In this document: piece by piece, positions 1-56,217 of the stretch
Layout of the letters: each line of letters begins with the position of its first letter
Numbering within the stretch: the first letter of the stretch is position 1
Assembly (NCBI GenBank): GCA_900552335.1
Contig: URZL01000005.1
Location: 1-56,217, forward strand
DNA length: 56,217 nt
DNA from: an uncultured Mycoplasmatota bacterium
GTDB lineage: Bacteria > Bacillota_I > Bacilli_A > RF39 > UBA660
Direction of reading: 5' to 3'
Program-made: the position numbers and the translations under genes
Notes under the pieces: generated by a model
Told to the model about the DNA's origin: nothing
The model's input: the letters and a program-made list of their open reading frames with translations, nothing else
Databases searched by the model: none

Positions 1-1010
1 CTTGTTCCTGATACATTTGTTCCATCACCAGTTAAAGCATATAAAGTTCCATTTTGTTTATATACTACACTTGGTGTTGTACTACTTGTTTCATACCATG
101 TATTTGCTTCTATTGTTGTTACATTACTTTCTGTACAACTTTTTGGTATTGTTTCTGTTCCACATGTTGAAACAATGGTATTTCCTACTACTTCTGCTTC
201 TACACTTGATTTCAAATAATATTGGAATCCTTCTTGTTTATCATACCCTATTTGAATTACTCTACTTGTTGCGTATTCATATTCTCCTGGTGTTTCACTT
301 ATTTGCTTTATTTCGGGATTATTCATTTCTTTGGTTGTTATCTTTTCTTTGATTGTTTCACTTTTTAATCCACTTTTATTTTCTACTATTACTTCGATTT
401 CATATTCTTTATTTTTCTCTAATCCTGTATAAACTTGATTATTACTTTCACTTATTGTTTCTTTTCCATTTATTTTATAGTAGTATTTTACAATCATTCC
501 ATCTGGTTCTTCTGCATCTACTATTACTTTAATACTATTTGTCGTACTACTTAAACTGATTCCTTTTAAGATGGGATTTGTGATATCATTATCTGCTATA
601 CTTCCATCTAATACTTCGTTTCTTTTTTCATCTCTGATACAGGTATACTTGTCATCTGATACTACTAACTCTCTTGTATCCTTCAATATCTTATATGTTC
701 CCATTTTTGGTAACTCACCTTTTAGGTTTAATTTACTAATTGGTTCATAGACAGTTCCATCTACTTCTTCTCTTTCTGTTCTGTTACTTCCAAATTCAAA
801 GATGACATTTTCTGCTTTACTTCCTTGTAACTCTTCATTTACTTCATATTGTTCATAGGAGTCATATATTTCATTACAGGTTACTTTAAAACTACTTTTC
901 CTACTATCTTCTATTACTCCTAATATCATTGGTACTGTTATTAATGTAATCACTGACAATATTACTATTACAGCTAATAATTCAATTAATGTAAATCCTT
1001 TATTTTTCAT
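1..1010 (-). CDS. Prepilin-like protein with fibronectin-like ectodomain, 3' end beyond window
   Basis: The reading frame is open from the ATG at 1010 to the window edge, so the C-terminus is missing. The start is fixed by GAGGAG about 7 nt upstream. Residues 1-30 are a type IV prepilin signal: MKNKGFTLIELLAVIVILS has the G/F cleavage site, the Glu at +5 and a hydrophobic helix. After about residue 35 the sequence differs from the other prepilins here and has scattered Cys. Around residues 145-220 the pattern of alternating hydrophobics with YTGLEKNKEYEIEV resembles a fibronectin type III strand order. The predicted product is a surface or pilus-associated pseudopilin. It shares its promoter and leader with the prepilins at 43-56 kb. 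The family call is firm and the ectodomain fold is tentative. Confidence 0.85.
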   Translation of the reverse strand, partial: MKNKGFTLIELLAVIVILSVITLITVPMILGVIEDSRKSSFKVTCNEIYDSYEQYEVNEELQGSKAENVIFEFGSNRTEREEVDGTVYEPISKLNLKGELPKMGTYKILKDTRELVVSDDKYTCIRDEKRNEVLDGSIADNDITNPILKGISLSSTTNSIKVIVDAEEPDGMIVKYYYKINGKETISESNNQVYTGLEKNKEYEIEVIVENKSGLKSETIKEKITTKEMNNPEIKQISETPGEYEYATSRVIQIGYDKQEGFQYYLKSSVEAEVVGNTIVSTCGTETIPKSCTESNVTTIEANTWYETSSTTPSVVYKQNGTLYALTGDGTNVSGT

Positions 1011-1113: not shown

Positions 1114-1197
1114 AAAAAGGGATATATCCCCCCCCCGTTTACAAATAGTGTACATTATTTTTATGTGTACCTCCAACTTACAAACTATATTACTATT
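1114..1197 (-). promoter_or_regulatory. Prepilin leader: hairpin, nine-G tract, terminator-like stem
   Basis: Read on the minus strand, the leader holds the family block ATAGTAATATAGTTTG, then an imperfect hairpin (1137-1185). A run of nine G follows (1128-1136). Last comes GGGATATATCCC followed by five T, which looks like an intrinsic terminator. The ATG lies about 118 nt further downstream. The same order occurs before the prepilins at 44 and 46.8 kb. Confidence 0.7.
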
Positions 1198-8975: not shown

Positions 8976-8985
8976 TTAGTTCCTC

Positions 8986-11992: not shown

Positions 11993-11994
11993 TT

Positions 11995-42338: not shown

Positions 42339-43034
42339 TTATATTTCCTTTCTTTTATGAACAAAGTAACGAATTCCACCACATATATAATCATATATGT
42401 ATTTGGAAATCGTTTCTTTTTTAGCGCTTTTAAATAATTGATGTCTTACATCTTTTATCAATACAAATTCTTTTTTTGATTTTAATTTTTTTAATACATA
42501 TTCACTTGATTTTAAACGAATAACAGGGTCTCTATCTCCATGCATAATAAGAACAGGACAAGTGATATTACTGATATCATGACGTCCTATATGAGACAGT
42601 TTAATATATTCCATAAAACTACGTAGAGAAACATGTCTCATTTTGGAAAAACAGCCTTCAAATCCGGTATCGCCTTTTTTGCTTTTAAAAATATTTTTTA
42701 AGTCCTCTTCATTTTGCTTTAATGAACCGAAATAGTAAGCAGGCGAAAGCAAGATAAGTTTTTTTACAGAGTGCATACTAGACAAATGGGCAGCAATAAT
42801 AGCTCCCATACTATGACCAATTAGAATCACCTTTTTTGATTTTAGACTGAGAAATTCTTTTTCTGCCTTATCTAACCATTTTTGATAAGAAACATAGGTT
42901 ACTTTATCCTCCTCATGTCCTGGCAATGTGAATGTGTGCAGATCTATATTATGATGTTTTTTTAAATATTGAATAAAATATTCATTATCCTCTTTTTTTG
43001 CTGAAAAACCATGAATAAACAATACTTTTTTCAT
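42339..43034 (-). CDS. Alpha/beta hydrolase in the pheST operon
   Basis: About 231 aa. A nucleophile elbow GHSMGA, an Asp in HGDRDP and a His in VRHQLF form the catalytic triad of the esterase/lipase fold, similar to carboxylesterases of the YvaK/Est30 kind. It is the first gene after the T-box and ends 1 bp before pheS, so its expression is set by uncharged tRNA-Phe. GAGGGAAG precedes ATG 43034. Substrate unknown. Confidence 0.85.
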   Translation of the reverse strand: MKKVLFIHGFSAKKEDNEYFIQYLKKHHNIDLHTFTLPGHEEDKVTYVSYQKWLDKAEKEFLSLKSKKVILIGHSMGAIIAAHLSSMHSVKKLILLSPAYYFGSLKQNEEDLKNIFKSKKGDTGFEGCFSKMRHVSLRSFMEYIKLSHIGRHDISNITCPVLIMHGDRDPVIRLKSSEYVLKKLKSKKEFVLIKDVRHQLFKSAKKETISKYIYDYICGGIRYFVHKRKEI

Positions 43035-43053
43035 AAAACTTCCCTCACTAAAT

Positions 43054-43268
43054 AAAAAAATCACATCCTAGATAAGGACGTGATTGACGTGGTACCACCT
43101 TAATTTAGAGCATATGCTCTCTTGAAGCTATAACGCGCTACCGTCATAAATTTTGTTTATAAAGCTCCAAGACGAATTCATAAAGTTTTCATATTTGTTT
43201 TCACCAATCACAAACTCTCTACAATGAAATATCTTTATTACTACTTCTCTTCCCTGCATTTAAAATCT
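43054..43268 (-). promoter_or_regulatory. T-box riboswitch (tRNA-Phe) controlling hydrolase-pheS-pheT
   Basis: On the minus strand the leader has Stem I with the AGAGAG turn, then GAATTCGTC where TTC can be the Phe specifier. The T-box motif AAGGTGGTACCACG (43086-43100) follows. Last comes the terminator CACGTCCTTATCTAGGATGTG with seven T. Uncharged tRNA-Phe is expected to stabilise the antiterminator. Confidence 0.92.
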
Positions 43269-43275
43269 ATAAATA

Positions 43276-43303
43276 ATTATATCATAAATTTTACTTTTGT
43301 AAA
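43276..43303 (-). promoter_or_regulatory. Promoter of the T-box operon
   Basis: TTTACA (43298-43303), a 16-bp spacer and an extended -10 TGATATAAT ending at 43276. Confidence 0.75.
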
Positions 43304-43323
43304 GTTCTTTTGTATTTTAGACT

Positions 43324-44388
43324 TTACTTAATACCTAGTGCATATACAAGTACTGGCTGACTAGCTGTATAGGCTCTTTGAATTTTTATCTCCCCATTAT
43401 AAGTGACAATTCCTAATGTATAAGCATAGTAAGGATTATAAGAATGTAAGCCTGTTACTACACCGCCATCAACATTGAAACCAGTACCACTATTATTTAC
43501 ACTTAAAATAAAAGCAGTTGGAATAATATGATGTGTACCATTCCATCCATCTCCGTATACAAAAGTATAAATATCTATAAATTTATAAGGTGTTAAATCG
43601 TGTGTACCAGAAGCTATTAAAGAAATATTTGCGCCATTTTTTGCAGTATTTCCAGGAATTGTTACACTATTAATAGCAGTGTAAGATCCCATTTGATTTA
43701 TTGTTGTGTTTAGTTCTTGTATTGATTTTTGATTACTATTTACTAAACTAGATAAATTTTCAACGTTTGTATTTGTTTTATCTAACTCACTTTGTAATGC
43801 ATAGTTATTTAAATTATTTTGTAATTCTTCAATATTACTTTTGATACTTGTTATTTCATTTGTATTGTTTGTTATTTTTGTATCTAGACTGTCTACTAGG
43901 TTATTTACTTCATCTTTGGAATAAACATTACTAACATTCCCTGTTCCATTATCTAACATTGCTACATATTTATTTGTTAAAGCATCAAATCCTATGATAC
44001 AATTTCCAGCTTTTCTTTCTCCTACAATAACTCCACTATTATAATTTTTATATGCATAATAGGTATCATTTGAAATACATATGCTGACATTTCCTTCTCT
44101 ATCTAAATAGAGTTTTCCTTCTCCATCTATGGTTCCTCTATAATCTAGGCTTTCTCCTTTTTTTGTACTTCCTTTGTGTTCTTGATCAAACAAGAATTCA
44201 TAGACTCCATCATTTTCTATCGCATATAAATTGGCAGATTCTACTAGTCCTGGTATACTAGACGCAAGTGCTTTCTTTTTACTTTCTTCTATTACATTTG
44301 TTATCATGGGTATGGTGATTAATGTAATCACGGATAATATAACAATCACAGCTAATAATTCTATTAATGTAAATCCTTTTTCTTTCAT
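43324..44388 (-). CDS. Modular prepilin-like protein with coiled-coil stalk and variable tip
   Basis: The 354-aa protein opens with a type IV prepilin signal, MKEKGFTLIELLAVIVILS. The pilin module (residues 1-150) has two Cys in SICISN and GNCIIGF. Residues about 150-240 are heptads (NNLNNYALQSELDKTNTN). The C-terminal 115 residues form a beta-rich domain starting GSYTAINSVTIPG and ending VLVYALGIK. Module 1-150 is near-identical, also at DNA level, to the prepilins at 46.8, 55.3 and beyond 56.2 kb, but the tip is unrelated. The start at 44388 has AAGGAAGGA before it. A frame extends upstream through the G tract but lacks a ribosome binding site. Confidence 0.9.
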   Translation of the reverse strand: MKEKGFTLIELLAVIVILSVITLITIPMITNVIEESKKKALASSIPGLVESANLYAIENDGVYEFLFDQEHKGSTKKGESLDYRGTIDGEGKLYLDREGNVSICISNDTYYAYKNYNSGVIVGERKAGNCIIGFDALTNKYVAMLDNGTGNVSNVYSKDEVNNLVDSLDTKITNNTNEITSIKSNIEELQNNLNNYALQSELDKTNTNVENLSSLVNSNQKSIQELNTTINQMGSYTAINSVTIPGNTAKNGANISLIASGTHDLTPYKFIDIYTFVYGDGWNGTHHIIPTAFILSVNNSGTGFNVDGGVVTGLHSYNPYYAYTLGIVTYNGEIKIQRAYTASQPVLVYALGIK

Positions 44389-44420
44389 ATAATCTTCCTT
44401 CCTTTTTATAGCAACAAAAA

Positions 44421-44506
44421 AGAAGAGGTATGTAAAATACCCCCCCCCCGTTTGCATATAGTAAACACTAAAAAATCACTATCTACAAACTATATTACTA
44501 TTTTTA
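44421..44506 (-). promoter_or_regulatory. Prepilin leader: paired stem, ten-G tract, terminator-like hairpin
   Basis: The stem GTTTGTAGATAGT / ACTATATGCAAAC (44450-44490) has one wobble and one mismatch. Ten G follow (44440-44449), then GGGGTAT/ATACCTC and a T-rich run. The stem covaries with the copy at 47 kb (ATAGT/ACTAT there ATAGC/GCTAT). Confidence 0.8.
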
Positions 44507-44517
44507 TTTACATATTT

Positions 44518-44546
44518 ACTATATCAAATTTATTTTAGATATTCAA
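44518..44546 (-). promoter_or_regulatory. Prepilin promoter
   Basis: TTGAAT (44541-44546), 17-bp spacer, TATAGT (44518-44523) with extended TG. The -10 is 28 bp before the leader stem, as in the other copies. Confidence 0.8.
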
Positions 44547-44549
44547 GAC

Positions 44550-45782
44550 TTATTTATTATAATATTCTTCTAGTCTGATTAATTGGTTGTATTTACAAAT
44601 TCTATCTGTTCTTGACATAGATCCTGTTTTAATTTGACCTAAATCAAGCCCTACAGCTAAATCAGCAATGCTTGTATCTTCTGTTTCACCACTTCTATGT
44701 GAAATAACTGTTGCATAACCATTTTGTTTCGCTAACTCAATTGTCTCGATTGTTTCTGTGATTGTACCAATTTGATTAATTTTAATTAAAATAGCATTTC
44801 CTGCTTTCATATCAATTCCTTTTTGAAGATATTCTTTATTTGTAACAAATAAGTCATCTCCAACTAATTGAACCTTATCACCAAAAAGTTTGGTCATCAA
44901 AGCAAATCCTTCAAAATCATTTTCATCTACAGGGTCTTCGATTGTTATAATTGGATATTTTTCTATTAGTTCTTTGTAATAATTAAATAATTCATCCCTA
45001 TTTAATATTTTATTTTCGCCAACTAATTCATATTTTTCATCATGATAAAACTCTGATGCAGCTACATCTATTCCTAAAAATACATCTTTTCCTGGAGTAT
45101 ATCCAGCTTTAGAAATGGCATCAATGATTAATTCAAATCCTTCTTGATTACTTTCCAAGTTAGGAGCAAATCCTCCTTCATCTCCTACACCAGTAGACAA
45201 ACCTTTTTCATTTAAAACTTTTTTTAGAGAATGAAATACTTCACTACCGATACGAATTCTTTCCTTAATTGTATCAGCTTGCGGTATAATCATAAACTCT
45301 TGAAAATCTAGTTTGTTATCAGCATGTGCTCCACCATTTAAAATGTTCATCATTGGTCTTGGTAATGAATTACCATTTCCGATATATTTGCTTAGTGGTT
45401 CTTGCTTTTCATTAGCAGATGCTTTTAACACAGCAAGGGATACGCCTAGTATCGCATTAGCGCCTAATATTTCTTTATTTTTAGTTCCATCTAAATCAAT
45501 CATTTTATAATCAATATCATGTTGATTGGTTGATTCCATGCCAATAATAACTGGAGCTATTATATTATTGACATTATCGACAGCTTTTAATACGCCTTTT
45601 CCCATGAAACGTTTTTTATCATTATCTCTTAATTCTAAGGCTTCTCTACTACCTGTAGATGCTCCACTTGGAACACTAGCTCTTCCTAACACTCCATTTT
45701 CTAATAAAACATCCACTTCAACAGTAGGATTACCTCTTGAATCTAATATTTCTCTTGCATGTATCTCTTTTATTTTTCCCAT
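44550..45782 (-). CDS. eno: Enolase
   Basis: The 410-aa protein has every enolase landmark: [14 protein letters not shown] at the start, the mobile-loop [23 protein letters not shown], the metal ligands in [10 protein letters not shown] and GDDLFVTN, the catalytic Lys in LIKINQIGT, and [16 protein letters not shown]. It converts 2-phosphoglycerate to phosphoenolpyruvate. It is about 20 residues shorter than usual at the C-terminus. It lies between two prepilin genes and has its own extended -10 promoter. Confidence 0.98.
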
Positions 45783-45797
45783 ATTATCACCCTACTT

Positions 45798-45840
45798 ATT
45801 ATATCAAAAAACAAAGAAATTTTCTATTTTTCTTTGTTCA
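45798..45840 (-). terminator. Terminator after the 46.8-kb prepilin and eno extended -10
   Basis: AACAAAGAAA and TTTCTTTGTT pair, with six T (45804-45838). The adjoining TGATATAAT (45798-45806) is a good extended -10 for eno. Confidence 0.75.
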
Positions 45841-45852
45841 AAATTTTGAATT

Positions 45853-46842
45853 TTATGCTGTACGTTCCCATATATAAACAACTTTATATGGTGGCATGTT
45901 ATTATGTGGTTGTGATCCACCTGCACTAGATGAAGTCCAAGTACTATTTCCAGAGACATATGGTAATGATCCTCCAGAAGGTGCACCTGGATATGCATTT
46001 GTTCCTGTATAAGTATGTGTATGTTTTGGCATTTCATTCACTGTCAAGGTATGAGTAGCCTCACCACCTTCTGAATTAATTGCATAGCTATCAGATTCGC
46101 CTAGTAAAAACTTCCCTTCTATTTTACTCCATGATGTTCCACCATAAATTTCAATTACCTTTTCTTCTGTATCTAACGTAGTCGATTGAATAATCATACC
46201 AACATGCGAACGCATAAGTATTACCTTATTTGTTAACTGTTCAATATTTTTTTCATTATTGCTTACAGTAGTTGACAAATTCTCTAGATGTGTATCTAGG
46301 TTCTTTAATTCTTCTTTTGTTGCATATGTATTCGCTAAATTGTCTATTAAATTGTTGATTTCATCTTTTGAATATACATTACTAACTTGTCCGGTTCCAT
46401 TATCTAACATTGCTACATATTTATTTGTTAAGGCATCAAAGCCTATGATACAATTTCCAGTTTTTTTATTTCCTACGATAATTCCACTATTATAGTTTTT
46501 ATATACATAATAATTATTATTTGAAATACATATACTTGTATTTCCTTCTTTATCTAAATAAAGTTTCCCTTCTCCATCTATATTTCCTTTATATTCTAGT
46601 TTTTCTCCCTTTATGGTACTTCCTTGATGTTCTTCATCAAACAAAAATTCATAGACTCCTGTATCATGACTCATTGTAAAATATTCTGTTGAATCTAATA
46701 CAGCTTCTACACTAGATACTAATGCTTTCTTTTTACTTTCTTCTATCACATTTGTTATCATTGGTATTGTGATTAATGTAATCACTGATAATATAACTAT
46801 TACAGCTAATAATTCTATTAATGTAAATCCTTTGTTCTTCAT
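45853..46842 (-). CDS. Modular prepilin with phage tail collar-like tip
   Basis: The 329-aa protein begins MKNKGFTLIELLAVIVILS and carries the shared pilin module (residues 1-150). A short coiled coil follows (LKNLDTHLENLSTTVSNNEKN). Residues about 215-329 resemble the C-terminal domain of phage tail collar and fibre proteins: SWSKIEGKFLLGE, GGEATHTLTVNEMPKHTH and NNMPPYKVVYIWERTA. In phages this domain binds host receptors. A pilin fused to it is consistent with an adhesin tip. GTGAGGAG precedes the ATG at 46842; an ATG 6 nt upstream is too close to the site. A terminator follows. Confidence 0.9.
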   Translation of the reverse strand: MKNKGFTLIELLAVIVILSVITLITIPMITNVIEESKKKALVSSVEAVLDSTEYFTMSHDTGVYEFLFDEEHQGSTIKGEKLEYKGNIDGEGKLYLDKEGNTSICISNNNYYVYKNYNSGIIVGNKKTGNCIIGFDALTNKYVAMLDNGTGQVSNVYSKDEINNLIDNLANTYATKEELKNLDTHLENLSTTVSNNEKNIEQLTNKVILMRSHVGMIIQSTTLDTEEKVIEIYGGTSWSKIEGKFLLGESDSYAINSEGGEATHTLTVNEMPKHTHTYTGTNAYPGAPSGGSLPYVSGNSTWTSSSAGGSQPHNNMPPYKVVYIWERTA

Positions 46843-46940
46843 ATTCATACTCCTCACTTCTTTTATTATTTGTATTTTTCTATTCTTCATACAGTTTATC
46901 ACATTAAAATTTAAATGTAAACTATTGCATTGCATTTAAA

Positions 46941-47030
46941 TTTTTAAAAAGAGGTATTTAAAATACCCCCCCCCCGTTTGCATATAGCAAACATAAAAAA
47001 ATTTGCTATCTACAAACTATATTACTATTT
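46941..47030 (-). promoter_or_regulatory. Prepilin leader: 16-bp stem, ten-G tract, terminator-like hairpin
   Basis: GTTTGTAGATAGCAAA pairs with TTTGCTATATGCAAAC (46976-47017, one wobble, one mismatch). Ten G follow (46966-46975), then GGTATT/AATACC and TCTTTTT. It is the longest version of the family stem. Confidence 0.8.
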
Positions 47031-47044
47031 TTACTTCCATATTT

Positions 47045-47073
47045 ACTATATCAAACATTACTTATTTTTTCAA
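47045..47073 (-). promoter_or_regulatory. Prepilin promoter
   Basis: TTGAAA (47068-47073), 17-bp spacer, TATAGT (47045-47050) with extended TG, just past the stop of the FMN-binding gene. It is 28 bp before the leader stem. Confidence 0.8.
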
Positions 47074-47075
47074 GC

Positions 47076-47528
47076 CTATTTTGCTTGTTTTAATGCATTA
47101 TTAACAGCTTCTTGAATAGCAGTCAAATTGATAGTAGCACCACTAATTGCATCTGTTTTTCCTTCTTCATTCAAAGTAACATCTAAGCCTTGATGTTCCA
47201 CAATATATTTTTCTAAAGCTTCTGCTTGTTCATACCATTCGCCAGCAGCGGATGGATAATATTTTTTCATATTATAATCATTTCCTTCTATCCTTTTTGT
47301 AGAAGCTGTTGTATCCGATTTTTCTTTATTAATATAAGTACTATCAATAAAAGCAGATTGAATCATACCACTTTCGTCTACATATATAACAGCAGTTGCA
47401 TAAGAATCATAAGTTTCATCATAAGCATAACCAAAGTAAGTACCTTTTTTATAATCACCTGTCATTACTTCACAACCAGTTCCAAATGTTAAAAATAATA
47501 AACTGATTAATACTACAATTTTTTTCAT
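47076..47528 (-). CDS. FMN-binding-domain lipoprotein (PplA-like)
   Basis: About 150 aa with a lipoprotein-type signal (KKIVVLISLLFLTFGTGC) and one FMN-binding domain. The flavinylation motif DAISGATIN (D..SGAT) lies near the C-terminus; ApbE-type enzymes attach FMN to its Thr. In Listeria the homologous lipoprotein carries electrons outside the cell. The ApbE gene is three genes upstream in the same operon. The start at 47528 follows TAGGTGAT. Confidence 0.85.
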   Translation of the reverse strand: MKKIVVLISLLFLTFGTGCEVMTGDYKKGTYFGYAYDETYDSYATAVIYVDESGMIQSAFIDSTYINKEKSDTTASTKRIEGNDYNMKKYYPSAAGEWYEQAEALEKYIVEHQGLDVTLNEEGKTDAISGATINLTAIQEAVNNALKQAK

Positions 47529-47550
47529 ATTATCACCTAGAACTATCATA

Positions 47551-48051
47551 TCATAAAACTATTTCTTTTTGAAGTAATTTGACAATTTGTTTACTTATTA
47601 TGCCGGTGAAACAGCCTGTTATGATAGAAAGAATTATTAAAAAAGGAAAATAAAGATAAACAGAATTATTTTTTAAGAAAACATATGCCATCAATAATTG
47701 ACCTATAGAATGAAAAATTGCTCCTATAACACTAATACCAACAATGGAAAATAAATTTATTTTTTTTAAAATTGACATTGCCGTTAAACTTAAAATTGCT
47801 CCAGCTAAACTAAATAAAAAAGTAGTACTAAATAATCCAGTTCTTAATAATCCCACCACTATAATACGCAAGATTGAAACATAGAAAGCTTCCTTTATCC
47901 CATATAAATATAACACAGCAACAATGATGATATTCGCTAAACCAATCTTAATTCCTGGTATATAAAAAAAGGGGATAAAACTTTCTATAATATTGAAAAG
48001 AATGGCAATTGCTGTAAGCATTGAAAGTCTTGCACATTTTTTAATATCCAT
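47551..48051 (-). CDS. Gx-transporter-family membrane protein (EetB-like)
   Basis: The 166-aa protein has five to six helices and segments typical of the Gx/heptaprenyl-diphosphate-synthase component I-like family (PGIKIGLANIIIVAVLYLYG). In Listeria the related EetB is needed for flavin-based extracellular electron transfer. GGGTGA lies before ATG 48051. It is placed between NusG-II and FMN-binding genes, as in that operon. Confidence 0.75.
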   Translation of the reverse strand: MDIKKCARLSMLTAIAILFNIIESFIPFFYIPGIKIGLANIIIVAVLYLYGIKEAFYVSILRIIVVGLLRTGLFSTTFLFSLAGAILSLTAMSILKKINLFSIVGISVIGAIFHSIGQLLMAYVFLKNNSVYLYFPFLIILSIITGCFTGIISKQIVKLLQKEIVL

Positions 48052-48055
48052 TTTA

Positions 48056-48406
48056 TCACCCAATCACTGTATCAATTGAATCATTTGATTCTATTCTAAT
48101 TACGATTTTATTTGGTAAACATACAATTGTTTCAGATGAGGAAGAAATAAATCCTTGTTTAGAACATAGATGTTTTGGACTATTTTCTTCTTCTACTTTA
48201 ATTTTTCTATTTTCAACAACAAGATGTACATTACCATTATAACCTGTAACATCGTATTCTTTATTTTCTTTTAAATCAATTTTCAAGATTAAATTATTTT
48301 CATAATAAACATTCGCTATTGCGCCTTCTTCTTTTGGACGAAAGCAAAAGAAAATAGCAGCAATCATTAAAAACATTATTATTAAAATAAGATCATTTTG
48401 CTTCAT
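48056..48406 (-). CDS. NusG domain II-containing membrane protein (EetA-like)
   Basis: The 116-aa protein has an N-terminal helix (residues 7-22). A NusG-domain-II-like beta module follows (AIANVYYENNLILKIDLKEN, CSKQGFISSSSETIVCLPNKI) with a Cys pair. EetA of Listeria has the same layout. Its start overlaps the end of ApbE. Confidence 0.8.
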   Translation of the reverse strand: MKQNDLILIIMFLMIAAIFFCFRPKEEGAIANVYYENNLILKIDLKENKEYDVTGYNGNVHLVVENRKIKVEEENSPKHLCSKQGFISSSSETIVCLPNKIVIRIESNDSIDTVIG

Positions 48407-49412
48407 AACGACTTAACCCATCAGATGTAATAATTTGATTATCTATTGTGTACCATATAGCTTCTACACCTTCTAATGAATTAATATATTTTTTTCCATC
48501 TTCTACACTCATCATGTATAACATAGTAGATAAGACATCGGCAAATTTGCTAGAAGAACAAACAACCGTTACACTTTTGACATAATTATCTGGGAATAAG
48601 GTGTTTGGATTAATGATATGACTATATCTTTTTCCTTCCCATTCATAGTATCGGTTATAACCACCACTCGTTACAACGGCCATATTATTACCATAAATAA
48701 CTTTGAAAATGCCTGTTGGATCTTCTGGATCTTCAATACCAATAGAGTATTTTTTTCCTTCTTCATTTCCACCAACAACTACATTGCCACCTGCATTAAT
48801 AATATATCTTGAAATTCCTTCTTTTTCTAAATAATCAGCTGCTAACTCAGTAACGTAACCCTTTGCTATAGCTCCTAAATCAATGTTAACATGATTATTT
48901 GCTATTTTATTTTTATCTAATAAAACAATATCTTCAATGCTGTCTGTTTTAGCTGCTTTTAATTCTTCTATTGTTGGTACTCCATATTCACTATCACGAT
49001 AACTTTTCCAAATATCTAATACATTTCCCATGCTAATGTCTACCAAACCATTAGTGGCAGTGTATACTTCTTTACCATACTCTAATAATTGATATAGCCT
49101 TTTATCAATTGTTATAGTTTCATCTTTTGAAGTATTATAAGCAATATAATATAGATTTTTTAATCCTTTATATTCTTTGTATTTATTTGTTAACTCGTCA
49201 TATTCTTTATATATTTTTTCTACACCACTAAGTACTTCAGAAGCCTGTAACTGATTACCTGCATATACTTTTACATAAATATAAGTATCCATGTAATAAA
49301 TATTTTCCGAATATTCTTTTACTTTCAAACTTTCTATTAACACCATTATTAAAAAAGCTGTTACCAATACTGGAATTATAATAAACAAAGTTTGATTAAT
49401 TTTATCTTGCAT
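48393..49412 (-). CDS. FAD:protein FMN transferase ApbE
   Basis: The 339-aa protein has a membrane anchor near the start, then the ApbE core. VDISMGNVLDIWK, NIDLGAIAKGYVTE, YIINAGGNVVVGG and the final SHIINP loop are visible. It moves FMN from FAD to a Thr of the target lipoprotein, here probably the 47076 gene product. GGTGATGTT precedes the ATG. Confidence 0.93.
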   Translation of the reverse strand: MQDKINQTLFIIIPVLVTAFLIMVLIESLKVKEYSENIYYMDTYIYVKVYAGNQLQASEVLSGVEKIYKEYDELTNKYKEYKGLKNLYYIAYNTSKDETITIDKRLYQLLEYGKEVYTATNGLVDISMGNVLDIWKSYRDSEYGVPTIEELKAAKTDSIEDIVLLDKNKIANNHVNIDLGAIAKGYVTELAADYLEKEGISRYIINAGGNVVVGGNEEGKKYSIGIEDPEDPTGIFKVIYGNNMAVVTSGGYNRYYEWEGKRYSHIINPNTLFPDNYVKSVTVVCSSSKFADVLSTMLYMMSVEDGKKYINSLEGVEAIWYTIDNQIITSDGLSRYEAK

Positions 49413-49463
49413 AACATCACCATACTCATTATAACAAATTTTCTTCTATTTGACTAGTACTTC

Positions 49464-49488
49464 AAAAAAAGAAGGGACTATTGTCCCA
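49464..49488 (-). terminator. Terminator at the ddl 3' end
   Basis: GGGAC and GTCCC pair around four bases, followed by TTCTTTTTTT; it overlaps the last ddl codons. Confidence 0.75.
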
Positions 49489-50680
49489 TTTTGTTTTTCA
49501 TGCCTTTCGAACCACCTTGATAAGTACTTAATATATTACTTTCAAAGGAAGTTACTTTATTATTTTTTGCTTTATATTCTTTAATTCCAATGGTAATAAT
49601 ATCATCTAACAAAGTTGCATAATCTTTTCCCACTGGTTTCCATAAATAGAATGCTAAACTTCCTGGAATAATATTAGGTTCATTTACATAAACTTTTTCA
49701 TTTTTTGTATCGATTAAAAAGTCAATTCTAACATCTCCACTTAAGTTTAATACCTTAAATGTTTTTAACGCTAATTCTTCTACTTGTTTTTTTACACTTT
49801 CTTTTAAGTTAGCTGGAATTTTCATAGAAGAAGTCGCTATTTTACCAGTAGACTTAGGTGATTTACACCCTTTTTTACCACCATCTGATAAATATTTATC
49901 ACTATAAGTTAAAAAGTCATTTTTTGTAGCCATTTCTGCGATAGCTGAAGTCTCTGCATATTCATAATTTCCTAATACACTGATATTCACTTCTAATAAA
50001 TGATCAATCATTTTTTCTACTAATATCTTATTATCATATTGAATAGCATCTTCAATACTTTTTATTACATCTTTTTCATTATGAGCTACACTAATACCAA
50101 CACTACTTCCTAAATTAGCTGGTTTTACAATAACAGGATATCCTAATTCTTCAATATTTTTTAAAATCTTTTTACTATCTTCTAAATATTCACTATCATA
50201 GAACCAACAATAATCTGGAGTTGGAATATTAGAAGAAGTCATAATCTGTTTTTGTAAAACTTTATCTTGTCCAATACTAGAACCAATAATGCTAGACTCT
50301 GCATAAGGAATTCCTACTAAATCCAAATAGCCAGCTACACTACCATCTTCTACTCCTTTACCATGAACAAGTGGTAAAACAATATCTAATTCTGCTACTG
50401 TTTTTCTAAATAATCCTGTTGTTTTTTGTAATACAAACCCATCTTTTGTTTTTGTTAAAACAACTTTTTTGGCATATTTTTTAAGATTATCAAAATCTCT
50501 AAAGACTTCAATATCCATTAACATTTTTCCTGTATACCAAATTCTATCTTTACTAATATAGATTGGTATAATATCATATTTTTCTTGATTGATAAAAGAC
50601 ATTGCTTGACATGCTGTAATAATACTTACTTCATGTTCTACTGTACTTCCACCAAAGATAACACCTAATTTTATTTTCAT
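49478..50680 (-). CDS. ddl: D-alanine-D-alanine ligase family protein
   Basis: The 400-aa ATP-grasp enzyme starts VIFGGSTVEHEVSIITACQ. It has LVHGKGVEDGSVAGYLDLVG, VKPANLGSSVGIS and a metal-binding NEPN motif. It joins two D-Ala for peptidoglycan precursors. The NEPNIIPGSLAFYLW segment differs from the more common NEVNTLPGFT, and the protein is 30-40 residues longer than usual. GTAGAGG precedes the ATG. It follows murF in an operon. Confidence 0.92.
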   Translation of the reverse strand: MKIKLGVIFGGSTVEHEVSIITACQAMSFINQEKYDIIPIYISKDRIWYTGKMLMDIEVFRDFDNLKKYAKKVVLTKTKDGFVLQKTTGLFRKTVAELDIVLPLVHGKGVEDGSVAGYLDLVGIPYAESSIIGSSIGQDKVLQKQIMTSSNIPTPDYCWFYDSEYLEDSKKILKNIEELGYPVIVKPANLGSSVGISVAHNEKDVIKSIEDAIQYDNKILVEKMIDHLLEVNISVLGNYEYAETSAIAEMATKNDFLTYSDKYLSDGGKKGCKSPKSTGKIATSSMKIPANLKESVKKQVEELALKTFKVLNLSGDVRIDFLIDTKNEKVYVNEPNIIPGSLAFYLWKPVGKDYATLLDDIITIGIKEYKAKNNKVTSFESNILSTYQGGSKGMKNKMGQ

Positions 50681-50689
50681 TTTGCACCT

Positions 50690-52285
50690 CTACTTCATAT
50701 CTTCATTGAATATATCAGGAAGATCATTTTCTAATAATACATAAGTTTCTTTTTCTGCTAAACGATTGAATAAAGGAAAAGCTAATTTTACATCATCCAA
50801 TATATGAATTTTATTTTTTGGATATTTCTTTTCTATTAATCCATCATAGATTGGTTTTGTTTGTTTTTCACCAATCAAAATAACTTCATCACAAGCATCT
50901 GCTATTTGTTTTCCAAATGTTTTGTTGATTTCATATTCTTCACTACCCATTTCAATCATTCCTGGTGTTACAATTATTTTTTTACCAGGCATTAATTTTA
51001 GTACATCTAAAGCCATTTTAGATCCAACAGGATTGGAATTATATGCATCGTCTATAATATTTATACTACCCATTTTTTTTAGTTCTAAACGGTGTTCAAC
51101 TGGTTTTACTTTTTTAACTCCCATGATTAATTTTGGAATACTAATTCCTAAATGATATCCTAAAGCAATTCCTGCCAAAATATTATAAACATTGGCTTTT
51201 CCTAATAACTTTGTTTCAAATTGATATTTTTTGGTACTTCCGTTAAAAGTAACATCAAAAGTAGTACCATCACTAGATAATTTGATGTTACTTGCTTTTA
51301 CATCAGCATCTTTATCAATACCTATCCAAACAATTTTAACTTTGTTTTTTAATGGGTAAGATACTTGGTATGGATCATCCGCATTTAAAATACCAATTCC
51401 ATCTGGTGGTAATGATTCAATAAGTTCAAATTTCCCTTTTTGAATATTTTCTCTGCTTCCAAAACTATCTAAATGAGCTGTTCCAATAGTGGTTAAAATA
51501 CCATATGTTGGATGAACTAAATCACATAATTCTTTTATTTCGCCTCTTTTGAAAGCTCCCATTTCTGCTATAAATATGTCATTGAATTTATCTAAATAAT
51601 TATTAATGGTAATGATTAAGCCAACTGGTGTATTAAAATTTTTAGGAGTTGGAAAACTATTGTATTTAACATTTAATATATCATTTAAAATATTTTTACT
51701 ACTTGTTTTTCCATAACTCCCTGTAATTCCAACTACTTTTAAATTTGTCATTTCTTTTAATTTACGAATTGCTTTTCTTTTAAAATTGTTATTAATCATT
51801 TTTTCAATTGGTTTATTAATAACATTAGCAAGCCAAACTATATAATAATTAAAATATACGATAGCACCGATTATAAGATAGTATATATATAAATTATTTT
51901 CATTAAATGAAACGCTAAAGATCATAATTGGTATCAAGTATAAAATAGTTGTTGTTACAAGTAATCTTTTTACTCTTTTTGTAAATACCAATGGCTTTTT
52001 TGTTTGTTCTTTTTTTGCTTTACTTAATTGAATTAAAGATAAAATGGTATAAATGATTACTATTAAAACCATACTAACAATTGGATTACACCATTTGAAA
52101 ATAAAAAATAAAATAAAAATCAATTCTACATTTAAAAATATTTTTTTGATATTCTTTGATATCCATTTTAGATAACGGTTTCCATCATTGTACCAATTTT
52201 GTTGCAACATATGGAATGATTTTTTTGTTTTTAAATACGTATATACCAAAATAGGTAGTACCGATACAATAAATTTTACTAACAT
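50690..52285 (-). CDS. murF: MurF-like ligase with N-terminal membrane domain
   Basis: The 531-aa protein has about 170 N-terminal residues with several transmembrane helices, then a Mur ligase: VVGITGSYGKTSSKN, the NFNTPVGL loop, VHPTYGILTTIGTAHLDSFGS and DDAYNSNP. MurF adds D-Ala-D-Ala to UDP-MurNAc-tripeptide and is usually cytosolic and about 450 aa. Here the membrane segment would tether it. It lies in an operon with ddl and an alpha/beta hydrolase. TAGGAGG precedes the ATG. Confidence 0.9.
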   Translation of the reverse strand: MLVKFIVSVLPILVYTYLKTKKSFHMLQQNWYNDGNRYLKWISKNIKKIFLNVELIFILFFIFKWCNPIVSMVLIVIIYTILSLIQLSKAKKEQTKKPLVFTKRVKRLLVTTTILYLIPIMIFSVSFNENNLYIYYLIIGAIVYFNYYIVWLANVINKPIEKMINNNFKRKAIRKLKEMTNLKVVGITGSYGKTSSKNILNDILNVKYNSFPTPKNFNTPVGLIITINNYLDKFNDIFIAEMGAFKRGEIKELCDLVHPTYGILTTIGTAHLDSFGSRENIQKGKFELIESLPPDGIGILNADDPYQVSYPLKNKVKIVWIGIDKDADVKASNIKLSSDGTTFDVTFNGSTKKYQFETKLLGKANVYNILAGIALGYHLGISIPKLIMGVKKVKPVEHRLELKKMGSINIIDDAYNSNPVGSKMALDVLKLMPGKKIIVTPGMIEMGSEEYEINKTFGKQIADACDEVILIGEKQTKPIYDGLIEKKYPKNKIHILDDVKLAFPLFNRLAEKETYVLLENDLPDIFNEDMK

Positions 52286-52294
52286 GACTTCCTC

Positions 52295-53020
52295 CTAATT
52301 TAAAAAACTTTTCATTACACTTATAGTTTGTCCTAAATTTTCCAAATATGCATAGTGTGTTGCATTTTCATATACAACTAAACCAGCATCTGGAATTAAT
52401 TTTTCTAGTTCATAAGCCCTATCAATGGAAACGGCTTCATCGGCTGTCCCCCAAATTAATAAAGTTGGTGCTTTTATTTTTTTTACTTCTTCTGTTATAT
52501 CCAAATTCACTGTTTTTACTAATGTTTCTCTCATAACAGGTGATGCATTCTTATAATCGGTCGATCCAATATGTTTTTTAGCAAATCCTTCTAGTTTATT
52601 AATGCCTGGTATTTTTTTTAAAGTTCTTAACGTTTTTAATTTCAAACTTTCTTTTTCAATTTCTTTTTGAAATGGGCTTCCAAAAAGGACAAGTTTTTCG
52701 ACTTCATATTTACTAGCATATAATAAACTAATTTTCCCACCATAAGAATGCCCTATTAAAGTTGGTTTTTTTATATCTAATTTTTGCAGCAATTCATGAA
52801 GAAGTTCTACATAATCGCTTACTTCATAAGGACGATCTAGTTGTCCACTTTTACCAAATCCTGGTAAATCAATCAAGATTACTTCGTGGTTTTCTATAAA
52901 AGGTTTTGCTACAGGTAACATCATTTCTGTATTTTGTCCCCATCCATGCAAAAAGACAAGTGGCTTTTTCCCACCTTGGTTATATCGTTCATAATAAACT
53001 TCCACGTTGTTGATTACCAT
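52295..53020 (-). CDS. Alpha/beta hydrolase
   Basis: About 241 aa. The start PLVFLHGWGQNTEMM, the nucleophile elbow GHSYGGK, Asp in WGTADEAVS and His in ENATHYAYL mark a complete triad. It lies directly upstream of murF in the operon and could act on wall or lipid substrates; this is position-based. The ATG at 53020 follows GGTGAAGA. Confidence 0.85.
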   Translation of the reverse strand: MVINNVEVYYERYNQGGKKPLVFLHGWGQNTEMMLPVAKPFIENHEVILIDLPGFGKSGQLDRPYEVSDYVELLHELLQKLDIKKPTLIGHSYGGKISLLYASKYEVEKLVLFGSPFQKEIEKESLKLKTLRTLKKIPGINKLEGFAKKHIGSTDYKNASPVMRETLVKTVNLDITEEVKKIKAPTLLIWGTADEAVSIDRAYELEKLIPDAGLVVYENATHYAYLENLGQTISVMKSFLN

Positions 53021-53078
53021 AATCTTCACCATAGACATTATATCATATTTTTACAATATGAAAAAAGTTTTTACAAAA

Positions 53079-53100
53079 AAAAAGCAACATTTCTATTGCT
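53079..53100 (-). terminator. Terminator after the 53.8-kb gene
   Basis: AGCAA and TTGCT pair, followed by nine T. Confidence 0.65.
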
Positions 53101-53758
53101 TGTACATTTGTTGACGAGTTATATACTGATTTTTTGCTTTTTGCTTTGCTTTAGGTAAAACAGTAATAGCATGATTTTCAATTACAGCATCCCAATATAG
53201 ATTATCTCTTCTTGGAAGCAAATAATTTTTACCACAATAATTACATTTTACTACTCTAAAATCGGCATTTTCTTTATCACTTTTTTCTACTTGATCGTTG
53301 ATTATTTTATAATATCCATTGTTACTAAATTCTACATGTCCACAATAATTTTGTTCCAAATGAAAAAACGAAGATAATAAAGATTGAATTGCTGGTTTCA
53401 AAATAGTTATAGGTAATTTTTCTAAATCCAATTCAAATGGATTCACTATATTTATTTTTTTACCATTTATTTTAGTGTCCCAATCAGGATAATTTGTTCT
53501 TAATAAAGATATGGTTTTTTCACAATAAGGAAACATAATTACTCTAAATTCTGCTTCTTCCTTTTCTACCATGCATACTTCACCGTTGTGATATTTATAA
53601 TATCCATAATCTAAGTAAAGATGATGATGACATACTTCAAGATTATTATAATATTCTTCTAATAATTGTTTTAATAACTTTTTTGCTTCTTCATCATTAT
53701 TTTTATTTATAGCGTACTCCAAACCTCTTTTTCTTCTTATTATTTTTTCTATATTCAT
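53093..53758 (-). CDS. Protein with two repeated GYYK...CxxC-like units
   Basis: About 221 aa. Two similar units of about 55 residues carry GYYKYHNGEV...FRVIMFPYC and GYYKIINDQV...FRVVKCNYCG. The second keeps a CNYC zinc-like knuckle and the first has lost one Cys. A short helical N-terminus precedes them. No known family recognised. The ATG at 53758 follows GGTGATC. Confidence 0.55.
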   Translation of the reverse strand: MNIEKIIRRKRGLEYAINKNNDEEAKKLLKQLLEEYYNNLEVCHHHLYLDYGYYKYHNGEVCMVEKEEAEFRVIMFPYCEKTISLLRTNYPDWDTKINGKKINIVNPFELDLEKLPITILKPAIQSLLSSFFHLEQNYCGHVEFSNNGYYKIINDQVEKSDKENADFRVVKCNYCGKNYLLPRRDNLYWDAVIENHAITVLPKAKQKAKNQYITRQQMYKQ

Positions 53759-53785
53759 ATGATCACCTTTTCTAATTTTGGGGGA

Positions 53786-53810
53786 ACAAAAAAGAAGTCG
53801 AAACTTCTTA
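53786..53810 (-). terminator. Terminator after khpA
   Basis: AAGAAGT and ACTTCTT pair around four bases, followed by a T run, at the khpA stop. Confidence 0.75.
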
Positions 53811-54053
53811 AAATGAATCAATATTGATTTTGACTTTTTTTAAACCATTGATATAGCTAGAGGCTTGAACTAATGTTCTAAGTGCATTAGCATTTATACC
53901 ATTTTTTCCAATTACCGCTCCCATATCACTAGAATCTACTAGCACTTGTATGGTAATGTATTCTTCATCATCTTCGAATTGTTTTACAGATACCATATCT
54001 TTTTGTTTCACAATACTTTTTACTAAGTATTCTGTTAGCGCTACTAAATCCAT
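53808..54053 (-). CDS. khpA: KH-domain RNA-binding protein KhpA
   Basis: The 81-aa protein is a lone type II KH domain with the GKNG loop (GAVIGKNGINANALRTLV). KhpA pairs with KhpB and binds RNA, affecting cell division in streptococci. It follows rpsP by two bases, the usual Firmicutes arrangement. Confidence 0.93.
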   Translation of the reverse strand: MDLVALTEYLVKSIVKQKDMVSVKQFEDDEEYITIQVLVDSSDMGAVIGKNGINANALRTLVQASSYINGLKKVKINIDSF

Positions 54054-54055
54054 AA

Positions 54056-54337
54056 TTATTTACCTTCTTTAGTCATTTTTGATTCATGGAATTTCTTCAT
54101 AATTCCTTGTTTGCTTAATAAATCTCTTACTGTATCAGTAGGAATAGCTCCATCATTTAACCATTTAAGTGCTACTTCTTCATTAATTTTTACTTCTGCT
54201 GGTTCCATAATTGGATTATATGTTCCAACAGTTTCAATAAATCTTCCATCTCTTGGGCTTCTTGAATCAGCTGCTACAATACGATAAAATGGTCTTTTTT
54301 TAGCTCCCATTCTTTTTAATCTTAATTTTACTGCCAT
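54056..54337 (-). CDS. rpsP: Ribosomal protein bS16
   Basis: The 93-aa protein begins [20 protein letters not shown] with the [13 protein letters not shown] and GTYNP motifs. These are diagnostic for S16 of the 30S body. GGAGGAAC precedes the ATG. A consensus promoter lies 24-52 bp upstream. Confidence 0.97.
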
Positions 54338-54360
54338 AATATGTTCCTCCGTTCTTTAAC

Positions 54361-54389
54361 ATTCTAACATAATTGTATGGTACTGTCAA
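54361..54389 (-). promoter_or_regulatory. rpsP promoter
   Basis: TTGACA (54384-54389), a 17-bp spacer and TAGAAT (54361-54366), nearly consensus. Confidence 0.85.
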
Positions 54390-54522
54390 CCTTTTTATGT
54401 TAACATGCTATTTAAATTTTTTCAAACATACAATATTATCCATTTAAATACTATTTAAAAGGAATGAAAATTAATTGTTCAATTTTCATATACTGATAAT
54501 TTGAAACAGTTATTTCTGTAGC
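54389..54522. repeat. Repeat copy A (prepilin 3' end plus flank)
   Basis: This segment holds the last 24 codons of the 54.4-kb prepilin and about 60 bp of flank. It recurs with few changes at 55546-55681, after a different prepilin. Confidence 0.85.
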
Positions 54523-55296
54523 ATCAACCAAAGATTGTGCAGAACCTCGTAAATATTGGGTACCAACATTAATGATAAAAAGATTTACACCATGTTGATC
54601 AAGTGCCAAAGCTCCATTATTTGCAGTTGCTTGGATTCTAGCAATAATAATTCCTGCACTTGGTGGAGTGTATGTTGATGTTGTTGACGTAATTTTCGAG
54701 CTTATATCAATTTTATTATCCCAGTCTAACTGATATAAATTATTTTGTAATTTTTCTATATTGCTTTTCATATTTGTTATTTCTGCAGTTAAATTATTGA
54801 CTAAATTATCAACTTCATCTTTGGAATATACATTACTAACATTTCCTGTTCCATTATCTAACATTGCTACATATTTATTTGTTAAGGCATCAAATCCTAT
54901 GATACAATTTCCAGTTTTTCTTTCTCCTACGATAATTCCGCTATTATAATTTTTATACGCATAATATTCATCATTGGAGATACATATACTTGTATTTCCT
55001 TCTTTGTCTAAATAGAGTTTTCCTTCTCCATCTATGGTTCCTCTATAATCTAGACTTTCTCCTTTTTTTGTACTTCCTTTATGTTCCTTATCAAATAAAA
55101 ATTCATAGACTCCTGCCGCATGACTCATTGTAAAATAATTAGTCGAATCTAATATTCCTTGTACACTAGACATAAGTGCTTTCTTTTTACTTTCCTCTAT
55201 TACATTTGTTATCATTGGTATTGTGATTAATGTAATCACTGATAATATAACTATTACAGCTAATAATTCTATTAATGTAAATCCTTTGTTCTTCAT
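54451..55296 (-). CDS. Modular prepilin-like protein with distinct tip
   Basis: The 281-aa protein has the prepilin signal MKNKGFTLIELLAVIVILS and the shared module (residues 1-160). Unlike its paralogues it has only a short stalk, which leads directly into a beta-rich C-terminal domain of about 90 residues (KITSTTSTYTPPSAG to KIEQLIFIPFK). The tip is unrelated to those of the other copies. TGAGGAGTATA precedes the ATG. Downstream it meets rpsP. Its leader lacks the G tract. Confidence 0.9.
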   Translation of the reverse strand: MKNKGFTLIELLAVIVILSVITLITIPMITNVIEESKKKALMSSVQGILDSTNYFTMSHAAGVYEFLFDKEHKGSTKKGESLDYRGTIDGEGKLYLDKEGNTSICISNDEYYAYKNYNSGIIVGERKTGNCIIGFDALTNKYVAMLDNGTGNVSNVYSKDEVDNLVNNLTAEITNMKSNIEKLQNNLYQLDWDNKIDISSKITSTTSTYTPPSAGIIIARIQATANNGALALDQHGVNLFIINVGTQYLRGSAQSLVDATEITVSNYQYMKIEQLIFIPFK

Positions 55297-55396
55297 ATTA
55301 TACTCCTCACTTCTTTTATTATTTGTATTTTCCTATTCTTCATACAGTTTATCATAGTTATTTTTAAATGTAAATTATAGCATTACATTTGAATTT

Positions 55397-55475
55397 AAAA
55401 AAAGAGATAATAACCTCTTACGGGATGTTATCTCTAAACTTAACGTCACTATCTACAAACTATATTACTATTCTT
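55397..55475 (-). promoter_or_regulatory. Prepilin leader, variant without G tract
   Basis: The same block ATAGTAATATAGTTTGTAGA occurs, but the downstream arm and G tract are missing. Instead AGAGATAA and TTATCTCT form a clear terminator (55403-55435) followed by seven T. Confidence 0.75.
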
Positions 55476-55487
55476 TATTACACACTC

Positions 55488-55516
55488 ATCTTATCAAAAG
55501 CAGTGTGTTTTTTCAA
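55488..55516 (-). promoter_or_regulatory. Prepilin promoter
   Basis: TTGAAA (55511-55516), 17-bp spacer, TAAGAT (55488-55493), again 28 bp before the leader block. Confidence 0.7.
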
Positions 55517-55545
55517 GTATTTTTTAACTACAATTATTATTTGAT

Positions 55546-55681
55546 ACCTTTTTATATTAATATGCTATTTAAAATTTTTCAAACATACAATAATTATCCA
55601 TTTAAATACTATTTAAAAGGGATGAAAATCAATTGTTCAATTTTCATATACTGATAATTTGAAACAGTTATTTCTGTAGCA
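55546..55681 (-). pseudogene. Displaced prepilin 3' cassette (repeat copy B)
   Basis: The segment repeats 54389-54522. Its coding part (55609-55681) still reads ATEITVSNYQYMKIEQL and on to IFIPFK and a TAG stop, the end of the 54.4-kb prepilin. It has no start and no pilin module. It lies just after the stop of a prepilin with a different tip, so it looks like an old 3' end displaced by a new one. Confidence 0.85.
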
Positions 55682-55702
55682 GATAATAAAAATTACTAAA
55701 TT

Positions 55703-56217
55703 CTAACAAAACGGAACAAAGGAAACCGAACTATTATTATCTTTAAAACCAACTGCAGTTATGATATCTCCAGCTTTTACAAGCATCGGTGGAAATGTCA
55801 TTTCTATGTCAAGACCGCTATATATATATGCAACACCATTTACTTTGACATTGCCACTCGTTCTAGAAAAATATACTCTTATATATCCATTTTCTTTTAT
55901 GGTATATGTTCCATTTCCAATAATTATTTTCTGATTTTTTGTAAGGTCTGGATACCCTATATTTTTTTCTAACCTGTTATTTAGATTATTAATACTTTCA
56001 GTATTACTGCTTACTAAACTAGATAAGTTTTCTACATTGATATTTGTTTGTTCTAATTCGTTTTGTAAAGCATAGTTATTTAAATTACTTTGTAATTCTT
56101 CAATATTTCTTTTCATGTTTGTGATTTCATTTGTATTATTTGTTATTTTTGTATCTAAGCTGTCTACTAAGTTATTTACTTCATCTTTGGAATATACATT
56201 ACTAACATTTCCTGTTC
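55703..56217 (-). CDS. Modular prepilin-like protein, 5' end beyond window
   Basis: The frame runs in from the right edge with TGNVSNVYSKDEVNNL, the end of the shared module. A coiled coil (NNLNNYALQNELEQTNIN) nearly identical to the 43.3-kb gene follows, then a new beta-rich tip (GYPDLTKNQKIIIGNG to SVSFVPFC). Met at 56116 is only internal. The prepilin start lies outside. The displaced cassette follows its stop within about 22 bp. Confidence 0.85.
   Translation of the reverse strand, partial: TGNVSNVYSKDEVNNLVDSLDTKITNNTNEITNMKRNIEELQSNLNNYALQNELEQTNINVENLSSLVSSNTESINNLNNRLEKNIGYPDLTKNQKIIIGNGTYTIKENGYIRVYFSRTSGNVKVNGVAYIYSGLDIEMTFPPMLVKAGDIITAVGFKDNNSSVSFVPFC

Follow-up and report, generated by a model that had tools for sequence, protein, structure and literature searches.

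Five prepilin genes in the window

The window analysed here is a stretch of 56,217 nucleotides from an uncultured Mycoplasmatota bacterium (contig URZL01000005.1) with a GC content of 26.7%. It contains five prepilin genes, all on the minus strand, which we designate W43, W46, W54, W56 and W1 (Table 1). A sequence-only reading of this DNA had claimed that four of them share a pilin module followed by unrelated C-termini, that the gene near 1 kb bears a further ectodomain, and that the genes lie amid housekeeping genes; these claims held up in the analyses below. The neighbours were identified from their translations as eno (44550-45782) and rpsP (54056-54337), and no pilus assembly genes were noticed on reading the window's translations. 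The start codons of W43, W46, W54 and W1 were chosen by reading the ribosome sites.

Table 1. Positions of the prepilin genes, their leaders and the displaced tip relic in the window
Feature	Position	Strand	Description
W43	43324..44388	-	Prepilin of 354 aa: shared module, long stalk, tip without known relative
W46	45853..46842	-	Prepilin of 329 aa: shared module, stalk, phage tail (Gp10_C-like) tip
W54	54451..55296	-	Prepilin of 281 aa: shared module, short stalk, own tip
W56	55703..56217	-	Prepilin: module end, long stalk, tip common to the non-pilin protein P0129; 5' part beyond the window
W1	3..1010	-	Prepilin: N-terminus and leader type as in the others, other ectodomain; 3' end beyond the window
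Displaced relic	55546..55694	-	Last 22 codons of a W54-type tip and its downstream DNA, behind the W56 stop
G10 tract, W43 leader	44440..44449	-	51 nt before the start codon; 5' arm of a terminator-like hairpin (44449-44419)
G10 tract, W46 leader	46966..46975	-	123 nt before the start codon
G9 tract, W1 leader	1128..1136	-	117 nt before the start codon
W43 leader	44389..44555	-	Promoter-like TTGAAT-17-TATAGT (44546-44518), conserved AATAGTAATATAGTTTG hairpin, G tract
W46 leader	46843..47082	-	Promoter-like TTGAAA-17-TATAGT (47073-47045), hairpin, G tract, second promoter-like TTTACA-17-TAAACT (46921-46893)
W54 leader	55297..55525	-	Same promoter-like and conserved elements, no G tract, other hairpin with T run near 55434-55397; read from the sequence

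A common pilin module precedes unrelated tips

W43, W46 and W54 have in common a module of about 155 residues, which extends from MKxKGFTLIELLAVIV to SNVYSKDEV. For W56, the window holds the last module residues, the stalk and the tip, with 215 nt that are 88% identical to W43, and the whole module is present in close relatives bearing the W56 tip. At the DNA level, W43, W46 and W54 are linked by repeats of 300 nt (85-87% identity) and 182 nt (79-86% identity). Thirty-seven representatives of the family, including W43 and W54 (the latter as P0002) and with P0070 standing for W46 and P0038 for W56, could be aligned over the module with about 100 invariant columns, and the alignment failed beyond it. 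N_methyl (PF07963) matched all 37 representatives and W1 as well, and the same proteins carry the class III signal peptide of prepilins (G/FTLIE and a hydrophobic helix). What W1 has in common with the other genes is the leader and the N-terminus only; its ectodomain is different.

N, L and E are abundant in the stalk that follows the module. In the AlphaFold2 models made for W43 and P0038 it forms one helix of 75-79 residues, but their overall confidence was too low (pLDDT 39 and 44, respectively) for further use. In a PDB sequence search, W54 matched pilin N-termini only, and the W46 tip had no match.

Base and tip are decoupled across the population

Residues 38-165 of the W54 module were used as the search query and matched 382 proteins. 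The best 120 of the 382, among them W54 as P0002, were analysed together with W43, W46 and W56, giving 123 proteins. Tip groups were defined by BLASTP of the last 90 residues (30% identity over 60%). Counting the distinct tips behind one module had been suggested as a check on the idea of a dispersed family with one base and interchangeable tips, and the count supported that idea: the 123 proteins fell into 38 tip groups, one of which (P0097) is a protein fragment, so that 37 is the safer figure.

Among these proteins, 35 pairs from different tip groups had modules at least 98% identical, and in two pairs the modules were 100% identical. In the other direction, pairs with tips 98-100% identical had module identities down to 79%, and a pair with tips at least 93% and modules at most 86% identical was present in 13 of the 23 multi-member tip groups. 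Three tip groups were found on two named stalk classes, and three more differ only by members classed as 'other'. A tree of 122 modules required at least 64 tip changes, as compared with 37 if each tip had arisen once. Judged by these sequence comparisons, base and tip are decoupled in both directions across the population.

Copies of the family and pilus machinery in related genomes

An initial scan of genome contigs with W54 found no relative. Relatives were reached via a PheS scan, which led to metagenome-assembled genomes (MAGs) named as uncultured Bacilli, Erysipelotrichaceae and Candidatus Onthousia; we take these MAGs to belong to the order called RF39. The module was present at E≤1e-12 in 90 of 386 genomes drawn from one family, with at most nine candidates scored per genome. 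Eighteen relatives, chosen mostly for their strong hits, each had between 5 and 61 matches to the prepilin motif (N_methyl). Pilus assembly genes, which the sequence-only reading had proposed to seek outside the window, were found in relatives: the ATPase PF00437 in 18/18, the platform PF00482 in 17/18 and the peptidase PF01478 in 15/18 genomes. A conserved position of the genes was looked for at 23 PheS loci in relatives; a motif scan revealed a prepilin in one of them only (L006), and this was of another kind.

The best genome, G128 (1.2 Mb), had 57 module matches on 16 contigs. Counted by genome position in 30 loci, its genes came to 31 prepilins, of which 27 are complete and 26, longer than 230 residues, were compared. 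Sixty-five pairs of these 26 genes had modules at least 60% alike, 40 of them without tip similarity. In 47 pairs (14 genes on 9 contigs) the modules were at least 94% identical, and 28 of the 47 showed no similarity in the tips. When DNA was compared with one reference in nine comparisons, identity began near the start codon; in four it ended 468 nt after the GFT codon, and in the remaining five it continued into related tips. The picture is different in G214, where the tips of 8 of the 9 dispersed prepilins analysed are of one diverging kind. The domains at the ends of these eight (among loci L335-L343) are related and strongly diverged, and most have a GVRPVIE end, which we presume to be typical of the C-type lectin fold.

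A displaced tip behind W56

Behind the W56 stop, 102 nt (55593-55694) are 92% identical to the end of the W54 gene and are followed by 47 nt with 94% identity to the DNA downstream of W54. The relic encodes the last 22 residues of a W54-type tip unchanged (22/22). A W54-type tip likely once stood at the W56 locus, the new tip having been inserted before its end. Three proteins, P0007, P0043 and P0091 (190-192 aa; 14, 2 and 3 member sequences, respectively), have lost the middle of the tip, and their stalk is joined straight to the same last 22 residues; they point to a breakpoint like that at the W56 relic. An old tip lying downstream of a new one, as in Rhs genes, was found at this one locus.

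An assembly artefact was also considered. In short-read metagenomes a repeated module may be joined to wrong tips, and part of the mixing could then be chimeric. Such an artefact would be favoured by the high DNA identity of the 470-nt module, which is 94-96% between several copies in G128 and 91-96% for the four in which identity ends at a common point, and many G tracts (see below) lie near contig ends; two G128 loci, L354 and L355, carry the same repeat pair and the same 553-aa prepilin and may be an assembly duplicate. However, many combinations of module and tip recur on numerous contigs, the W56 relic lies inside one contig and not at a module junction, and in three tip groups the stalk classes differ between the carriers of one tip. 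We consider it quite improbable that an assembly artefact explains the mixing.

Origin of the tips

Scanned as its near-copy P0070, the W46 tip matched the phage tail families phrog_24267 and phrog_5717 (both 2e-15) and Gp10_C (7.4e-8). W46's own tip matched 152 phage records, with a best identity of 43%, as well as 22 IMG/VR loci, of which three had equal scores and 60% identity. The L312 protein, which sits among tail genes upstream of an endolysin, is 56% identical to the W46 tip over 128 residues. At the level of sequence, the W46 tip is homologous to phage tail proteins. Proteins of the W46 type thus combine a pilin module with a C-terminal domain that is not specific to pili (Gp10_C/phage tail-like), as is characteristic of modular pilins.

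With P0038 representing the W56 tip, 98% of the tip could be aligned to the end of P0129 at 72% identity; P0129 has no pilin domain. Its sequence looks to us like that of a phage fibre, but a phage origin of P0129 was not confirmed: it matched no PHROG, no phage record and no IMG/VR locus, and one Pfam phage-tail hit remained below the cut-off. Hits to P0129 in related genomes were weak and confined to 5 of 386. The W56 tip had no match in phage records and no IMG/VR relative; IMG/VR held no relative of the W43 tip or of the whole W54 protein, and the W54 tip was found within the prepilin family only. Convincing tail matches among the 37 representatives were confined to P0070, over the whole tip, and P0037, over approximately the first 30 tip residues. 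The other tail hits were weak and mostly in the coiled-coil stalk, a few of them reaching the tip (P0040, P0061 and P0116). The description of the tips as phage-fibre-like was thus supported in part, for P0070 and for this short part of P0037.

Leaders and G tracts of the prepilin genes

The leaders of W1, W43, W46 and W54 have a promoter-like TTGAAN-17-TAnnnT and then the conserved AATAGTAATATAGTTTG element (those of W1 and W54 were read from the sequence). The window contains exactly three G/C runs of at least 7 nt, and all of them are in prepilin leaders: G9 for W1, and G10 for W43 and W46. In 60 Markov simulations, 0.35 runs of at least 7 and 0.0 runs of at least 9 were expected per window. 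A long homopolymer in the promoter, leader or gene start, the mark of contingency loci, is thus present at W1, W43 and W46 and not at W54. Phase variation of prepilin genes via the leader G tracts is likely on this sequence evidence.

Of 43 leaders of other genomes picked by motif, 2 were dropped by hand. The remaining 41 have a GUUUG/CAAAC stem directly before the G tract and a C-rich arm and T run after it. The hairpin may act as an attenuator. We do not claim it as an RNA class; it is kept in 40/41 leaders, but these were picked by motif and the stem varies mainly by wobble pairs.

The genes behind such tracts were examined in four related genomes. In G159, G333 and G258, tracts were counted once per pair of 20-nt flanks, a procedure by which a few real loci (L301 and L295) fall out. 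In G159, a prepilin signature was found within 800 nt behind 16 of the 22 distinct leader-type tracts; 5 had none and 1 is cut. Of all 31 distinct tracts in this genome, 18 precede the signature. The corresponding numbers were 3/11 in G333, 3/8 in G258 and 3/48 (42 testable) in G156.

Two further observations concern G tracts. In G156 (L218-L257), about 41 dispersed G9/G10 tracts stand before genes for a hydrophobic segment and variable ectodomains, with the leader ATGAAAGARAAAATAARGCTT in those that were read; one copy of this family is a retroelement target. At five loci (L267, L268, L269, L304 and L307, in G258, G159 and G333), G9-G11 tracts lie within the spacer from TTGACA to TATACT/TATATT, the whole spacers being 17-19 nt as counted by eye.

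A probable library of modular prepilins

Given the shared module, the decoupled tips, the relic and the leaders, we consider it probable that the window is part of a genome-wide library of modular type IV pilus adhesins that is diversified by recombination and tip displacement and is probably phase-variable. Each prepilin gene stands alone behind a promoter-like sequence and leader of its own, and encodes a constant base, a coiled-coil stalk that varies in length, and a tip, of which there are dozens. New tips would enter by recombination in the module or stalk and push the old tip behind the new stop, as in Rhs genes, while duplication and gene conversion would spread modules among the copies or make them uniform. 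The leader G tracts would serve as contingency sequences through which individual copies switch at random. Prepilin peptidase would process the proteins, which would then be exposed on type IV pili or at the surface of the cell. There the tips may bind ligands of the host, the food or bacteria, or their variation may allow escape from antibodies or phages.

Several results weigh against parts of this interpretation. As for displacement, no clear tip relic was found in G128, so that it rests on the single W56 locus. As for switching, a G tract is missing from the W54 leader, and G9 tracts were absent from 5 of 15 genomes, including G128 and G118. Genes other than those for pilins can have a G tract before them too, and in G156, 41 tracts stand before another, hydrophobic protein family. 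The sole difference in tract length (G9 versus G10, in the overlapping contigs C10 and C40 of G159) occurred at a locus without a prepilin. In G156, none of the 48 tracts had an ATG frame of at least 60 codons through the tract (41 short, 5 without such an ATG, 2 off the contig), and the expected G8 form was not found there by one pattern. These frames and the missing G8 form fit a mostly-off library; they are not evidence of switching. Finally, the tips are not random on the modules. The 64 tip changes are well below the 87-97 obtained in 200 shuffles, and modules with the same tip are closer on average than those with different tips (93.4% in 449 pairs versus 87.4% in 6,932 pairs). Fixed orthologues without tip variation, the situation to which the sequence-only reading had been opposed, are not what the population contains, yet some combinations are stable and common: P0070, the 45.9-kb type, comprises 40 sequences on 19 contigs, and P0010 occurs on 32 contigs. 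Since 64 lies between 37 and the shuffled values, tip exchange is frequent but not free.

Stable combinations and partly clustered tips would also be seen if the genes were ordinary diverging paralogues, that is, adhesin-type prepilins each fixed for one ligand, which arise by duplication and occasional domain gain with no frequent exchange or switching. This is unlikely in view of the identical modules with unrelated tips, the near-identical tips on modules 79-81% alike and the 28 of 47 G128 pairs whose modules are at least 94% identical and whose tips are unrelated. The displaced tip behind W56 and the G tracts in the leaders also argue against it.

Comparison with known systems

We take the S74 domain to be a phage tailspike domain. 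It occurs in some of the more than 1,200 modular pilins, in 264 architectures, that are reported in PMC8179133. The same paper describes PilB and PilC of Streptococcus sanguinis as modular type IV pilins, in which a functional module is grafted on a small pilin for display (PMC8179133). The prepilins described here resemble them in having an extra module on a pilin, which was surveyed there across species. They differ in that one base bears dozens of tips in one population and many copies occur per genome, in that bases and tips are decoupled and one tip is displaced, and in the G tracts of their leaders. On our best reading of the sequences, the family belongs to the modular type IV pilins, in a new form. 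Among the open-licence PMC papers listed, we did not find such a prepilin family described, as judged by titles and the starts of abstracts, by which its absence is weakly tested.

The R64 shufflon is a system that switches the tip of PilV, and the sequence-only reading had likened the family to it. In comparison with the shufflons of R64 and TP114 (for TP114, PMC9045228), the likeness is in the layout, a constant pilin base with alternative C-terminal adhesin tips; the mechanism is different, since the shufflon is one gene with inverted cassettes and a tyrosine recombinase, whereas the window has dispersed complete genes and no such sites or enzyme were seen in it. The scan for inverted repeats of at least 30 nt (seed 12) found none in the window, and that with seed 10 and 17 nt found 37 pairs, the 25 longest of which were all weak and across unrelated genes. 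No site-specific recombinase was noticed on reading the window's translations or found among ten proteins without an obvious name that were scanned in Pfam. The statement that neither inverted sites nor a recombinase is seen here was thus upheld.

In Neisseria, pilin diversity is generated by recombination between pilE and pilS, and G-rich DNA lies upstream of the pilin gene. In that system there is one expression site with silent copies, whereas the window has many complete genes with promoter-like sequences. Silent copies of this type were considered for W43, W46 and W54 and rejected, as each has a promoter-like sequence, a ribosome site (by reading) and an intact frame. That a single expressed gene takes its tips from silent cassettes, by a dedicated recombinase or by gene conversion, would accord with the constant base and variable tip, as in PilV. 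With three of the genes having a start and promoter-like sequence of their own, no inverted repeats beyond the weak pairs, and a recombinase match in 0 of 10 proteins, it is the least probable of the explanations considered and very improbable in itself.

Rhs proteins are of the toxin type. Their C-terminal displacement (PMC2935791) resembles the present case in that core and tip are decoupled and the old tip is left behind the new stop. Rhs proteins are large, whereas here the core is a prepilin and one relic was found. Mycoplasma-type contingency families have a large repertoire of surface lipoproteins in a small genome, with homopolymer tracts; here the proteins are prepilins in place of lipoproteins, and the G tracts lie in a leader with a terminator-like hairpin. 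By analogy, the family probably works like PilV-type tip variation, by way of Rhs-like displacement and recombination among dispersed complete genes and probably with contingency-type expression.

Retroelements in related genomes

Reverse transcriptases were found in 10 of 16 related genomes. Nine of their loci (L354-L362), in seven genomes (G128, G214, G156, G258, G333, G086 and G075), were analysed for diversity-generating retroelements (DGRs). In eight of them, four on each strand, a near-repeat pair was present whose mismatches fell almost exclusively on adenines of the template; L359 had none. In the control with the other bases, C gave no locus, T gave the four minus-strand loci, and G gave L354, where it was the reverse view of the same pair, and its copy L355, where it presumably was so too. 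The targets include prepilins in three genomes, G128, G214 and G086. In addition, G214 (1 of 9 tested) and G128 (1 of 31) each have one distant prepilin locus, on a contig other than that of the template, with mismatches mainly at adenines (26/31 and 11/14, respectively). By their sequences, these distant prepilins look like trans targets of the same template. Putative pilin structures are mentioned among DUF1566-linked proteins in PMC6642488. Unlike in the three genomes, no A-biased near repeat was found in the parts of the window scanned (42901-56217 and 1-12000). No reverse transcriptase was noticed on reading the window's translations, and the window tips had no sequence match to a known DGR-target fold.

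To our knowledge, most known cases of varying pilus adhesins come from pathogens and plasmids. In the present case, uncultured gut bacteria with genomes of close to 1 Mb would invest heavily in such variation, and the prepilin library looks like a home-made means to change cell adhesion or recognition. It could explain how bacteria so reduced stay attached while their partners change, or evade antibodies and phages, and tips shared with phage tails would mean a common pool of receptor-binding domains for bacteria and phages. More tentatively, and with some doubt, we suggest that small-genome gut Bacilli keep a pilus diversity system of tens of dispersed, G-tract-switched prepilins per approximately 1 Mb, whose tips come from a pool shared with phage tails and would be renewed by displacement in some genera and by retroelement mutagenesis, also in trans, in others.

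Other features of the window

A T-box leader lies on the minus strand at 43071-43263, directly downstream of W43 and upstream of a gene for an alpha/beta hydrolase (42339-43064) and pheS-pheT. In an Rfam search of the window and one leader, the T-box before this 42.3-kb gene was the sole match. A single open frame at 33718-35754, also on the minus strand, reads from its translation as a MATE-type transporter fused to a cytidylate-kinase-like domain.

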